From the NCBI GenBank assembly GCA_014730235.1, contig WJIO01000306.1, forward strand, positions 1-49,145: a stretch of DNA of 49,145 bases. Direction: 5' to 3'. This document shows, in pieces, positions 22,392 through 40,856 of this stretch. Under the pieces are notes generated by a model, which saw only the letters and a program-made list of their open reading frames with translations, was not told where the DNA came from and did not search any database. Both the position numbers and the translations under genes were made by a program. Origin of the DNA: Candidatus Poribacteria bacterium. Its GTDB lineage: Bacteria > Poribacteria > DTPJ01 > WJIO01. Each line of letters opens with the position of its first letter. Position 1 is the first letter of the stretch.

Positions 22392-22673
22392 ATGGGAAAT
22401 AAAGATAATCAAAAACATGATCGCCGCGAATTTTTGAGAACTCTTGGGCGTTATACTATATTGGGTGGATTGTTTTCCATTGGTGGATTTCTTGCCATCA
22501 ACCGCAAGATGGATTTCTCATGTCCTGCCCCGCAGGATGGAAGCCCGAAACGGTTAGAAGGAATCTGCCGCAGCTGTGTTGTGTTTAAAGATTGTGATCT
22601 ACCTCTTGCAGAAGATATAAAGTCGAAAAATAAAAAAATACAGCGGGAGCTTCGCTCTCCCGATAAAACATAG
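22392..22673 (+). CDS. Small Tat-exported four-cysteine protein
   Basis: A 93-residue protein whose N-terminus, HDRREFLRTLGRYTILGGLFSIGGFLA, is a twin-arginine signal or anchor. The mature part has four cysteines (44, 59, 62, 68: SCPAP, GICRSCVVFKDC), enough for one metal or Fe-S centre. The family is not recognised. The immediate downstream genes are a Tat-exported polyferredoxin and a membrane ferredoxin, so it probably belongs to the same electron-transfer complex. A 6-bp GGGAG/CTCCC hairpin (22644-22662) falls within its last codons. Confidence 0.65.
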   Translation: MGNKDNQKHDRREFLRTLGRYTILGGLFSIGGFLAINRKMDFSCPAPQDGSPKRLEGICRSCVVFKDCDLPLAEDIKSKNKKIQRELRSPDKT

Positions 22674-22695
22674 ATATTAAAGAAGGTGTTATTAA

Positions 22696-23265
22696 TTGCC
22701 TGAAAAAGATAAAGATAAAATATCGCGACGGGATTTTATAAGTAATACAATTAGAGGGGTCTGTTTGCTGGGTTTGGGAGGAACACTGGGACTTGTTGCC
22801 ACCCGTACCCAGGCCGGGGATACGGTATGGCAGATTGATCCCAACAAGTGCATAGGCTGTGGTAGGTGTGCAGACCATTGTGTTCTGGAAATATCGGCTG
22901 TTAAATGTGTCCATAACTTCGCCATGTGCGGATATTGTAAGCTGTGTACAGGTTACTTTGAACCACAGCCCAACGCCCTTAACACCGGCGCGGAAAACCA
23001 GCTATGCCCTACAGGTGCTATCCGGCGAAGCTTTGTGGAACACCCGTATTATGAATACGAGATCGACGAGGAGTTGTGTGTGGGGTGCGGTAAATGTGTA
23101 GTAGGTTGTAATGCCTTTGGCAATGGTTCGTTGTTCCTTCAGATAAGGCATGATGTTTGTGTAAACTGCAACGAGTGTGCAATATCTGTAGTATGTCCAT
23201 CAGGGGCTTTTAAACGGGTAAATGCCAGTAAACCTTATATACTTAAGGGTGAGGAAGGTGAATGA
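22696..23265 (+). CDS. Tat-exported polyferredoxin (NapG/NosR-partner type)
   Basis: Periplasm-facing electron carrier of 189 residues. The signal ISRRDFISNTIRGVCLLGLGGTLGL has the Tat SRRxFI motif. It has 17 cysteines, 16 of them in cluster-forming groups: C52-x2-C55-x2-C58-x3-C62; C71, C78, C81, C84 with C104P; C128-x2-C131-x2-C134-x3-C138; C155-x2-C158-x2-C161-x5-C167P. This allows up to four [4Fe-4S] clusters, as in NapG-like proteins. It starts at TTG 22696 with AAGAAGGTG upstream. The 3' end overlaps the NapH-like membrane gene by 4 bases, the usual NapG-NapH arrangement. Confidence 0.83.
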   Translation: MPEKDKDKISRRDFISNTIRGVCLLGLGGTLGLVATRTQAGDTVWQIDPNKCIGCGRCADHCVLEISAVKCVHNFAMCGYCKLCTGYFEPQPNALNTGAENQLCPTGAIRRSFVEHPYYEYEIDEELCVGCGKCVVGCNAFGNGSLFLQIRHDVCVNCNECAISVVCPSGAFKRVNASKPYILKGEEGE

Positions 23266-37846: not shown

Positions 37847-37880
37847 TAAAGACAATGGAAAATATTTTCCATTGTCTTTA
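37847..37880 (+). terminator. 34-bp perfect palindrome, probable terminator
   Basis: TAAAGACAATGGAAAAT followed directly by its complement, starting 8 bases after the xylose-isomerase-like stop. The 17-bp stem can end transcription in combination with its AT-rich apex, although no long T-run follows. Confidence 0.6.
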
Positions 37881-38300: not shown

Positions 38301-38663
38301 ATGGACAGACGTACATTTATGAAAAAAGTTGGTGAATTTGCCAAAATCTCTGTCGCAGGAGTAACTTTGAGCAAATTACAAACAGCCGCTATAGCCACAG
38401 GCTTGGCAGGCGCATTGGGTAGTTGCGACCGTAATGGCGGTTCAGTGGCAGGACCTGAAGATAGTGCTAAGTTCAGTCCACCTTGTACTAATCACATTTG
38501 TTCAAATCAGTATTCCTGTTCAGGTGATGAATTTGTATGCACAAACGTGTTTACATGCAGGGATGATTATGAATGTCAGGCCCTAATTTTTTCCTGTTCA
38601 AGCAATTTTGAATGTTCAGGAAGTTACACTTTACCGCATGATCAGGGTGGAACCCCCGGTTAA
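38301..38663 (+). CDS. Candidate RiPP precursor: Tat/lipoprotein leader plus eight-cysteine core
   Basis: A 120-residue protein. MDRRTFMKKVGEFAKISVAGVTL is a Tat-like signal (RRTFMK). The hydrophobic stretch ends ALGSC, a lipobox-like site at Cys42. After a Gly/Asp-rich spacer, the core (62-105) has eight cysteines at 62, 67, 73, 80, 86, 92, 99 and 105, spaced x4, x5, x6, x5, x5, x6, x5. From the third onward each is preceded two positions earlier by Tyr or Phe (YSC, FVC, FTC, YEC, FSC, FEC). Such periodic Cys cores next to a radical SAM/SPASM enzyme are typical of thioether-bridged RiPPs (sactipeptide or ranthipeptide type). The specific family is not recognised. The tail LPHDQGGTPG may be a follower. 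A metal-binding Tat lipoprotein is an alternative. Confidence 0.7.
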   Translation: MDRRTFMKKVGEFAKISVAGVTLSKLQTAAIATGLAGALGSCDRNGGSVAGPEDSAKFSPPCTNHICSNQYSCSGDEFVCTNVFTCRDDYECQALIFSCSSNFECSGSYTLPHDQGGTPG

Positions 38664-38841
38664 AATTACTTATTTACATTAAATAGTATGGGATATACGT
38701 TCCCAATCAAAATTGAATCTACATATAGAAATCAGGAATGCTTATCGCCTGTTTATTCCATGATTAGACTTCTCTATATATGGTTATTCAAGCATTATTA
38801 GTATGTCTACTTTTATGTCAGGATAGATAAAGACTATTAAA

Positions 38842-40125
38842 ATGGCATCAAATAAAAACCTAATTAAAGTTGACTCTGATAAATATATATCCCATATTAA
38901 CAACACTCTTACCCATCTTTGGCAAAACGAAATATCAAACACATCAAAAAGCCAGATAATCTCACAACTTACAGACCTTTTAAAGCAGCAGAAAATTGAA
39001 TATGTAACTCCTGATGATATAAATCTTATTATAACTTCAGCGATTAGCAAAGCTTTTATGCACCCGTTGAATTATATGGAGTTATTTCTTACCGAAAATT
39101 GCAATCTGCGATGCGATTATTGCTTTGTTCATGGTAAGAATGAGTTTAATCGCATGACACAGAAAGTCGCCTTTGAGGCTGTAGACCTCTTAATATCTGA
39201 ATCGGGACATAATAAAACCCTCGATATTGTATTTTTTGGGGGTGAGCCGCTGCTGGAATCAGATTTAATCAGGAGTGTTGTTGAATATGCAGAACCAAAA
39301 GCGGCTTCCATAGATAAAAAGATTAATTTCAGCGCGACCACAAACGGAACCATTTTTGATGAAGATATTCTAAAATTAAGTCAGGGAAGGATCAATTATC
39401 TCATAAGCATGGATGGTGATAGAGAAACTCATGATCAGCATCGCAGGGATACATCGGGAGTAGGCTCTTATGACACAATTACCGAAAAGCTGGATATGGT
39501 AAAAAGCTATCAACCCTGGCTTGGTGTAAGGATGACTGTTTATCCCGATACAGCCAATAAACTTGAATATAATGTATCCCATCTTTTTTCCCTGGGTTTT
39601 AATCAATTTATAATCTGTCCCTCATACGGCCCCTACTGGAGCGAAGATGCAATATCTGAATATGAATCCCAGTTGGATAAGGTTGGTATCTTCTATTTAA
39701 ACAAAAAGCGAGAAAAAGCTCCTATTAGAATGACCTTTTTTGAAAGCGATTCCAACTCCCGGTTTTGTGTTTCCAACATATGGGGATGCCACGCCGGTAG
39801 AAACGCCGTTACCGTTGCTACCAATGGAAACCTGTATCCATGCAGTAAATTTATCGGCCTTGGAAAATCAAAGCGGGAAACCTACTGCTTTGGTAATGTA
39901 TCCACCGGCATAACAGACCTGGAAATACGCGACGAGTTTGAAAATATTGGAGCAAACATCTGGGAAGAGTGCAAAATCTGTGATGCTGCGGATTACTGCA
40001 CCGGTGGATGCCCTGCCAATAATTACAATGATACGGGTAGTGTATCTCAACCCTCACCCTTTGATTGTCAATTAGCAAGGCTAAACCGAAGAGTGCTTAA
40101 GAGATTTGAAAAGGCATTGGACTAA
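38842..40125 (+). CDS. Radical SAM/SPASM peptide maturase
   Basis: Cytoplasmic 427-residue Fe-S enzyme, probably modifying the Cys-rich peptide encoded just upstream. The radical SAM motif is ENCNLRCDYC (C87, C91, C94), with the SAM-binding segment FFGGEPLLES (133-136) and ISMDGDRETHDQHR. The SPASM domain is complete: C316-x12-G329-x4-C334, then C377-x2-C380-x5-C386-x3-C390 and C409, ligating two auxiliary [4Fe-4S] clusters. Residues 1-75 are an extra helical N-terminal region that could bind the leader peptide; I cannot confirm an RRE fold. Anaerobic sulfatase maturases share this layout, but no sulfatase is present. A 178-base gap with a small TGGGA/TCCCA hairpin precedes it. Confidence 0.85.
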   Translation: MASNKNLIKVDSDKYISHINNTLTHLWQNEISNTSKSQIISQLTDLLKQQKIEYVTPDDINLIITSAISKAFMHPLNYMELFLTENCNLRCDYCFVHGKNEFNRMTQKVAFEAVDLLISESGHNKTLDIVFFGGEPLLESDLIRSVVEYAEPKAASIDKKINFSATTNGTIFDEDILKLSQGRINYLISMDGDRETHDQHRRDTSGVGSYDTITEKLDMVKSYQPWLGVRMTVYPDTANKLEYNVSHLFSLGFNQFIICPSYGPYWSEDAISEYESQLDKVGIFYLNKKREKAPIRMTFFESDSNSRFCVSNIWGCHAGRNAVTVATNGNLYPCSKFIGLGKSKRETYCFGNVSTGITDLEIRDEFENIGANIWEECKICDAADYCTGGCPANNYNDTGSVSQPSPFDCQLARLNRRVLKRFEKALD

Positions 40126-40142
40126 TAAATACAGGTTAAAGG

Positions 40143-40856
40143 ATGAAGCATATAAAACTAATTATTTTGACAACTATAGTAATATTAATATCACCGATCT
40201 TTCAGGTTTATGCTTTATCCCTTACCGGCTCCAATGGTCTTTTGTATATACCAACAGCCCAAATGCAGAATGACAGGCATGTAAAAATTGGTATGACATG
40301 GCTTAATAAAGAAAGCTTTGCCTATGGTGAAGGTAAATATAACGGTCTGGCTTCCTTTGCAACCATAGGGTATCTACCATTTATGGAGATCAGTTTGAGA
40401 CTTACAAGAAAACTGGATTTTCCCGAAATACAGGCTCTGGGCGACAGGATGATTATAATCAGAATAAGACCTATAAAAGAAGGACGCGTATATCCTGCTG
40501 TTGTTTTCGGAGCACATGATTTTATCTGGTCAGTACCCGAATCACCCACCAATGAGTTTAACGCCCTTTATGCTGTTGCATCAAAGACTTTAGTTCTGGA
40601 ATCCGTCATTAATAAAATGGGACTCCATCTGGGATATGGAAGCGATTTAATAAAGGCAAAACATCGGGAATTTGTTGGTCTATTTGGGGGAGTAGATCTT
40701 TATTTCACTCCCAATATAGCTCTCATGATGGAACATGATTCCAGTCGTTTCAACTGGGGAGCAAAGCTATCTTTGTTTAACAAATTGGAAGTTGTAGCCG
40801 CTCTTCTAGATTTCAGTGTCTTTTCGGCGGGTATGAATTTTAGATTTTCTATTTGA
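40143..40856 (+). CDS. YjbH-like outer-membrane beta-barrel protein
   Basis: A 237-residue secreted protein. Signal MKHIKLIILTTIVILISPIFQVYA. The mature part opens LSLTGSNGLLYIPTAQMQNDRHVKIGMTWLN, close to the start of YjbH/exopolysaccharide-type barrels (TGxxGLIxxPTA). Alternating amphipathic strands follow, and it ends MNFRFSI, an outer-membrane insertion-type terminal Phe/Ile. It is 17 bases after the radical SAM gene and therefore probably in the same operon. It may anchor, export or receive the modified peptide. It could instead be a generic surface protein. Confidence 0.7.
   Translation: MKHIKLIILTTIVILISPIFQVYALSLTGSNGLLYIPTAQMQNDRHVKIGMTWLNKESFAYGEGKYNGLASFATIGYLPFMEISLRLTRKLDFPEIQALGDRMIIIRIRPIKEGRVYPAVVFGAHDFIWSVPESPTNEFNALYAVASKTLVLESVINKMGLHLGYGSDLIKAKHREFVGLFGGVDLYFTPNIALMMEHDSSRFNWGAKLSLFNKLEVVAALLDFSVFSAGMNFRFSI

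Follow-up and report, generated by a model that had tools for sequence, protein, structure and literature searches.

The window analysed here is a 49,145-nt stretch of DNA from Candidatus Poribacteria bacterium. Three genes on its forward strand encode, in order, a small Cys-rich peptide, a radical SAM/SPASM enzyme and an outer-membrane-type protein. The features of the locus are as follows.

37847–37880 (+), hairpin resembling a terminator (15-bp stem), behind the xylose-isomerase-like gene upstream; marks the edge of the locus.
38301–38663 (+), gene for the putative precursor peptide, 120 aa, with a Tat/lipoprotein leader and an aromatic-x-Cys core (from the sequence and a match to a profile of foreign precursors).
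38301–38423 (+), precursor leader, residues 1–41, with the twin-arginine motif RRTFMK and a weakly hydrophobic stretch (from the sequence).
38424–38426 (+), precursor Cys42, within the lipobox ALGS-C and with Asp at +2 (from the sequence).
38484–38627 (+), precursor core, residues 62–109, with eight Cys and six Y/F-x-Cys, ending Cys-Ser-Gly-Ser-Tyr.
38842–40125 (+), radical SAM/SPASM peptide maturase, 427 aa, with CX3CX2C and the full SPASM Cys set.
40143–40856 (+), 237-aa protein of outer-membrane type, YjbH-like, encoded in the same direction; doubtful as a member of the system.

The hairpin at 37847–37880 lies between the upstream gene and the locus, setting the latter apart. There is no Rfam match. 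The original prediction placed the peptide immediately upstream of a complete radical SAM/SPASM enzyme. The order of the genes and the completeness of the enzyme are borne out (CNLRCDYC and a full SPASM set in the 427-aa ORF); "immediately" is not, since 178 bp separate the precursor stop from the maturase gene. The outer-membrane-type ORF does begin 17 bp after the maturase gene, as described, and it matches Pfam YjbH (PF06082, E 2.1e-8).

The precursor has Cys at positions 42, 62, 67, 73, 80, 86, 92, 99 and 105. The spacing originally reported for the eight core Cys (x4, x5, x6, x5, x5, x6, x5) is exact from Cys62 to Cys105, and Y or F indeed stands two residues before each of the last six. 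The core has seven aromatics in total: six stand at −2 relative to a Cys, and the remaining one follows the final Cys at +4; when the non-Cys residues of the core are shuffled, six aromatics at −2 arise by chance with p ~1e-5. At the DNA level, a three-fold [FY]xC pattern is not by itself rare, being found in 126 of 386 genomes with backward controls giving similar numbers, so its significance here comes from homology and context rather than from the pattern alone. Such homology is evident. A profile made from nine other precursors, with the window peptide left out, gives that peptide 40.1 bits, against 9.5 bits for the best other ORF of the window and at most 27.2 bits for 1000 Cys-preserving shuffles. 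On this evidence from sequence, the window peptide is a member of a precursor family. No Pfam or NCBIfam model meaningfully matches any precursor, from the window or its relatives; the precursor profile matches none of the solved protein chains, and precursor tblastn finds nothing among plasmids and phages.

The adjacent enzyme carries the motif CNLRCDYC (CX3CX2C) followed by CX12GX4C ... CX2CX5CX3C ... C, a SPASM Cys set that reads as complete for two auxiliary clusters. Among NCBIfam models it scores highest with PapB (NF047865, 269 bits), then with SCIFF maturase (229, far below the cutoff of 425 for that family) and NlpM (214); QhpD/PeaB (176) comes next among characterised families. No model is matched at or above its curated cutoff. 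The closest solved relative is CteB (5wgg/5why), both by sequence and by Foldseek with a model of medium confidence (pLDDT 66.6). The first ~78 residues are predicted, with low confidence, to form three helices, and the prediction has no clear beta-wing of a canonical RRE. PADLOC matches to viperin reflect only the common radical SAM core and were set aside. Judged by its sequence, the enzyme is a SPASM peptide maturase near the thioether-forming PapB, CteB/ScfB and QhpD.

A survey of 386 whole genomes yields two close relatives of this maturase, in genomes G262 and G402, which belong to two different small phyla, neither of them the host's. The G262 enzyme is 42% identical to the window enzyme over the matched part (E 1.6e-91), and the G402 enzyme is found with E 9.4e-134 by a two-sequence profile; over the full length, the two are 39 and 43% identical to the window enzyme. 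The three maturases form one clade (aLRT 99) in a 33-row tree built by a quick method and midpoint-rooted for drawing only. All three fall short of the PapB cutoff of 340 bits (269, 229 and 271 bits), and for this reason we leave the clade unnamed. Elsewhere, matches are more distant. Plasmids, viral contigs and reference genomes contain only maturases of ~25–33% identity, SCIFF-type, NlpM and PeaB among them. Eighty-three other genomes of the host phylum contain no close maturase, just paralogues of 27–38% identity, and no further precursor was found in that phylum. Around G262 and G402, searches at the level of phylum and order (n = 4 genomes each) return only the genome itself. In the phylum of G379, more distant maturases are paired with other types of precursor.

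Both relatives have a precursor at the maturase locus. The G262 maturase contig starts within a peptide ending CSTYECGGAAQFACIGNTYRCTGAFKCYTGFNCTGRFSCTGTYNP, directly upstream of the maturase; in G402, a 92-aa precursor lies downstream of the maturase, with an HprK-like kinase gene in between. A search for three [FY]xC units at x5 spacing found further precursors in G262, including four away from the contig that carries the maturase. The precursor profile then added one more complete precursor and one fragment in G262, a second precursor in G402, and a truncated contig-edge copy in G387, a family-mate of G262. Several other matches were rejected: one in G323 has internal stops, and [FY]xC matches in G217, G354, G173, G329, G023, G003 and others have no maturase of the family within 5–11 kb, some of them being apparently non-coding frames or long Cys-rich exported proteins. 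Exported-looking proteins with TCERFYTCDSYYTC-type repeats occur in two genomes (L074:4587-5204, + strand; L075:4700-6115, − strand), where they adjoin a 790-aa membrane protein and have no radical SAM gene of the window family nearby.

Homologues of precursor and maturase therefore co-occur in two other phyla, and this pairing, conserved across three phyla in all, supports the RiPP-type precursor/maturase pair originally proposed. Two findings that would have told against the proposal, maturase homologues with no Cys-periodic neighbour and precursor homologues kept elsewhere as metal or Fe-S proteins with no maturase, are not seen: all three clade members (3/3) have a precursor at the locus, and precursor hits in the 386 genomes are limited to maturase carriers plus the truncated G387 copy. 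Within this set, members of the maturase clade are confined to G262 and G402, and precursors to these two plus G387. Such an overlap has a chance probability of ~4e-5, but some of these same genomes contributed training sequences to the precursor profile. Because that profile includes G262 and G402 sequences, the precursor counts for these two are partly circular. In G387, no maturase was detected, which is not decisive given that the genome is 86% complete and the precursor lies at a contig edge. Most G262 precursors, and the exporter described below, are on contigs other than that of the maturase, the assembly being fragmented. Recurrence of the peptide-enzyme pair in two further bacterial phyla points to a genuine peptide-modification family that has yet to be described, and the window enzyme very probably cross-links the adjacent precursor.

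We consider it very unlikely that the peptide is instead a disulfide-bonded or metal-binding lipoprotein and the radical SAM enzyme acts on something else: exported Cys-rich lipoproteins are common, and the L074 and L075 proteins are Sec-exported, have YTC/FTC repeats and lack a neighbouring radical SAM gene, but the pair is kept in three phyla, the precursor is confined to maturase-bearing genomes plus one relative, the precursors match no metal-protein family, and the L074/L075 proteins differ in length, leader and spacing and come from genomes with no match to the precursor profile.

What the enzyme does to the peptide is best approached through the ten cores. An aromatic occupies −2 of 72/78 Cys, while most other offsets have counts of 4–15. 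The exception is +4 (aromatic at 44/79 Cys), a high count that we attribute to the repeat structure; no Asp/Glu position is conserved, and freyrasin-type Cys-X3-Asp/Glu repeats are absent. In 9/10 tails, Phe or Tyr stands exactly four residues after the last Cys with no further Cys behind it. Across three phyla, then, precursors consist of C-X(2–6)-[F/Y]-X-C units and end in C-X3-[F/Y], and the conserved elements are the aromatic-x-Cys and the terminal Cys-X3-aromatic. Residues between the Cys vary freely, and offset counts reveal no non-aromatic position that is kept. The expectation that relatives would share both the aromatics and a strict Cys spacing thus holds for the former only; spacing is mostly x4–x7.

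Placement of the enzyme favours ranthipeptide-like thioethers, perhaps in a Cys-X3-aromatic arrangement. In Cys-X3-Asp, PapB links the sulfur of Cys with the Asp beta carbon, accepting 0–6 intervening residues and refusing the reversed order (PMC9413430); a review gives stricter spacing for PapB (PMC8172795). By analogy, the Cys-first order and the spacing of 2–6 fit the PapB range, with Phe/Tyr replacing Asp. A benzylic hydrogen is a reasonable site for abstraction. PapB needs a carboxylate acceptor, and a Phe/Tyr acceptor would be new for the PapB/CteB/QhpD group.

Two other chemistries have to be weighed for the same pair. In one, which we regard as unlikely, the thioether forms on a residue lying between the Cys (Asp, Asn, Ser or Thr) or on an alpha carbon (sactionine), and the aromatics serve in recognition or packing. 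Precedent exists, as known acceptors include Asp/Glu (PapB, QhpD), Thr (CteB) and Asn (PMC9413430, PMC8172795, PMC11002830), and Phe is an alpha-carbon acceptor in subtilosin (PMC8172795), but the lack of any conserved non-aromatic position between the Cys weighs against it. In the other, a little less likely again, a chain of three-residue cyclophanes would link each Phe/Tyr ring to the beta carbon of the Cys at +2, leaving the thiol free. This reading comes from the spacing, whereas the thioether is argued from the enzyme family. Aromatic-x-Cys is the tightest spacing of the core and suits chemistries other than a Cys-Xn-aromatic thioether; it has the triceptide Omega1-X2-X3 geometry, and known links of this kind include Phe-Ser and Phe-Asn (PMC11002830). 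However, the enzyme is far from the cyclophane-forming families (YhhB 88, FxsB 72 and GrrM/OscB 64 bits, with cutoffs of 445, 370 and 310) when compared with its standing against PapB (269 of 340), and does not belong to the triceptide/3-CyFE maturases. Cys as X3 is not reported in the review (PMC11002830), and the cyclophane reading leaves the aromatic conserved behind the last Cys without explanation.

The leader of the window peptide sets it apart from the others. It reads MDRRTFMKK...ATGLAGALGS-C, that is, a twin-arginine motif plus a lipobox. By eye, the MDRRTFMKK N-terminus agrees with the twin-arginine consensus and is close to its textbook form; the NCBIfam TAT model TIGR01409 gives 11.5 bits against a cutoff of 16.7. 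A lipobox pattern precedes the Cys to which lipid is attached in bacterial lipoproteins, and ALGSC at residues 38–42 agrees with it, again by eye. Counting along the chain, Cys42 matches the first Cys in the other precursors, the one that lacks an aromatic (LGC/EGC). Precursors of G262 and G402 open with a common helical leader (MKDKEIDKIAQAIAAKLG and MNFKDIEKIASAVVGSLF), and the window peptide is the one case of a Tat-type lipoprotein leader. Within the window, two further ORFs in the stretch 22392–23265 have Tat-type leaders, at 22392 and 22696 (KHDRREFLRTLG; ISRRDFISNT); one is a 4Fe-4S ferredoxin, and the region is a large run of redox genes. These other leaders suggest that Tat is in use in the host.

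Our preferred reading, to which we assign a probability of roughly 60% as a whole, is that the locus encodes a radical SAM RiPP of an undescribed family, with Cys-Phe/Tyr thioethers, whose product is exported by Tat and anchored by lipid. In the cytoplasm, the maturase would bind the precursor leader and attack an aromatic residue by hydrogen abstraction, most likely at the benzylic beta carbon. It would then couple that residue to the sulfur of a Cys, and doing so in every repeat would produce a rod of small thioether rings. In the relatives, the product would be handled by way of the helical leader and probably an ABC exporter. In the window system, the leader would have turned into a Tat-type lipoprotein signal, and on account of this signal we propose that the cross-linked peptide is exported folded by Tat; the original order of events, cytoplasmic cross-linking and then Tat export, is inferred only. 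Lipidation on Cys42 and cleavage by signal peptidase II would leave the product tethered in the cell envelope. More tentatively, and with the odds somewhat against it, one branch of a Cys-S-to-Phe/Tyr RiPP family may have exchanged its leader and ABC exporter for a Tat lipoprotein signal, in which case the cargo of Tat would be a lipid-anchored RiPP already folded by its chemistry.

Neighbouring genes bear on these routes. Related ABC exporters (47% identity) adjoin one G402 and one G262 precursor; both genomes also have related HprK-like kinases (27% identity) close to precursors. In G402, precursor, exporter, kinase and maturase form one gene cluster; in G262, exporter and kinase sit on contigs separate from that of the maturase. 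Neither an ABC exporter nor an HprK-like kinase adjoins the window locus. A secreted-looking protein comes after the precursors of G262 and G387 at L072, L073 and L101. Its start is shared between the copies (..GLDDVCAPQLGTSYPDFVFCAGSG..), the long one of which has FG-GAP repeats, and it may be a partner of the peptide.

The outer-membrane protein, contrary to the role first proposed for it, probably stands outside the system. Two paralogues (36 and 35% identity) stand beside unrelated genes elsewhere in the same genome, and no YjbH-like counterpart adjoins the G262 or G402 maturase. The gene may be co-transcribed with the maturase. A single-sequence AlphaFold model of the protein is unusable (pLDDT 31.5). 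In E. coli, Asp at +2 of the lipid-attachment Cys leads to retention in the inner membrane. By analogy, the Asp at +2 of Cys42 would favour the inner membrane, which speaks against a surface lipopeptide displayed by the barrel.

How does the system compare with known ones? With a leader-plus-core precursor, a SPASM maturase and a conserved pairing of the two, it has the general makeup of a radical SAM RiPP, and it is probably ranthipeptide-like. Freyrasin (PapA/PapB), made by the closest curated maturase family, likewise has repeated Cys-Xn-acceptor units, Cys first, and several rings per peptide are to be expected here too; the window system differs in having Phe/Tyr in place of Asp/Glu as acceptor, a Tat/lipoprotein leader, and a maturase below the PapB cutoff, in its own clade. 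SCIFF/thermocellin (CteA/CteB) shares the enzyme fold and SPASM set, whereas the window system lacks the SCIFF peptide motif and its maturase has an N-terminal part of only ~78 residues. In QhpC/QhpD, a related radical SAM enzyme forms Cys-Asp/Glu thioethers in an exported Cys-rich polypeptide; in contrast, the window locus has no amine dehydrogenase genes and its precursor no NCBIfam match. Triceptides share the repeated Aromatic-X-X3 motif, but with a different enzyme family, and X3 is Cys in the window core. Bufferins and DAG-RiPPs (DybA) resemble the window peptide in that the RiPP leader is an export signal, in some cases with a lipobox; they use MNIO enzymes and Sec-type signals, whereas the window maturase is a radical SAM/SPASM enzyme and its leader Tat-type, so that it belongs to neither group. 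Export signals as RiPP leaders are known and called highly unusual (bufferins, PMC12452194), and lipoprotein-type RiPPs have been demonstrated for MNIO enzymes (PMC12636315). In the open literature searched, no paper found connects a radical SAM RiPP with export by the twin-arginine route.

The precursor is described by no curated Pfam or NCBIfam family. If the Cys-to-Phe/Tyr links are true, aromatic side chains would be added to the known acceptors of PapB/CteB/QhpD-type enzymes (carboxylates, Thr and Asn), and the repeats would be ready-made for engineering. The exchange of leaders among the relatives would make it directly testable whether a radical SAM maturase can act on a Tat signal peptide and whether cross-linking has to come before Tat export.

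Several other candidate loci came to light. On the minus strand at L037:2612-3052, a 146-aa putative precursor with Cys at every third residue (GCGYCEKCFGCQSCNSCEGCYSCETC...) immediately precedes a radical SAM/SPASM enzyme whose branch lies close to the window clade; this pair is possibly another new RiPP type. In G107, an 86-aa peptide with repeated GCTLNQPxGKGA units (L019:1217-1477, + strand) is directly upstream of a radical SAM/SPASM enzyme, and in G151, a peptide ending TDICLLDYAQCPNTDVCILADYGSGCQTQDWCLVDKD (L024:1130-1489, − strand) adjoins a distant radical SAM relative. Finally, Lacrimispora amygdalina has three radical SAM/SPASM maturases in tandem (L013:4325-8554, + strand).
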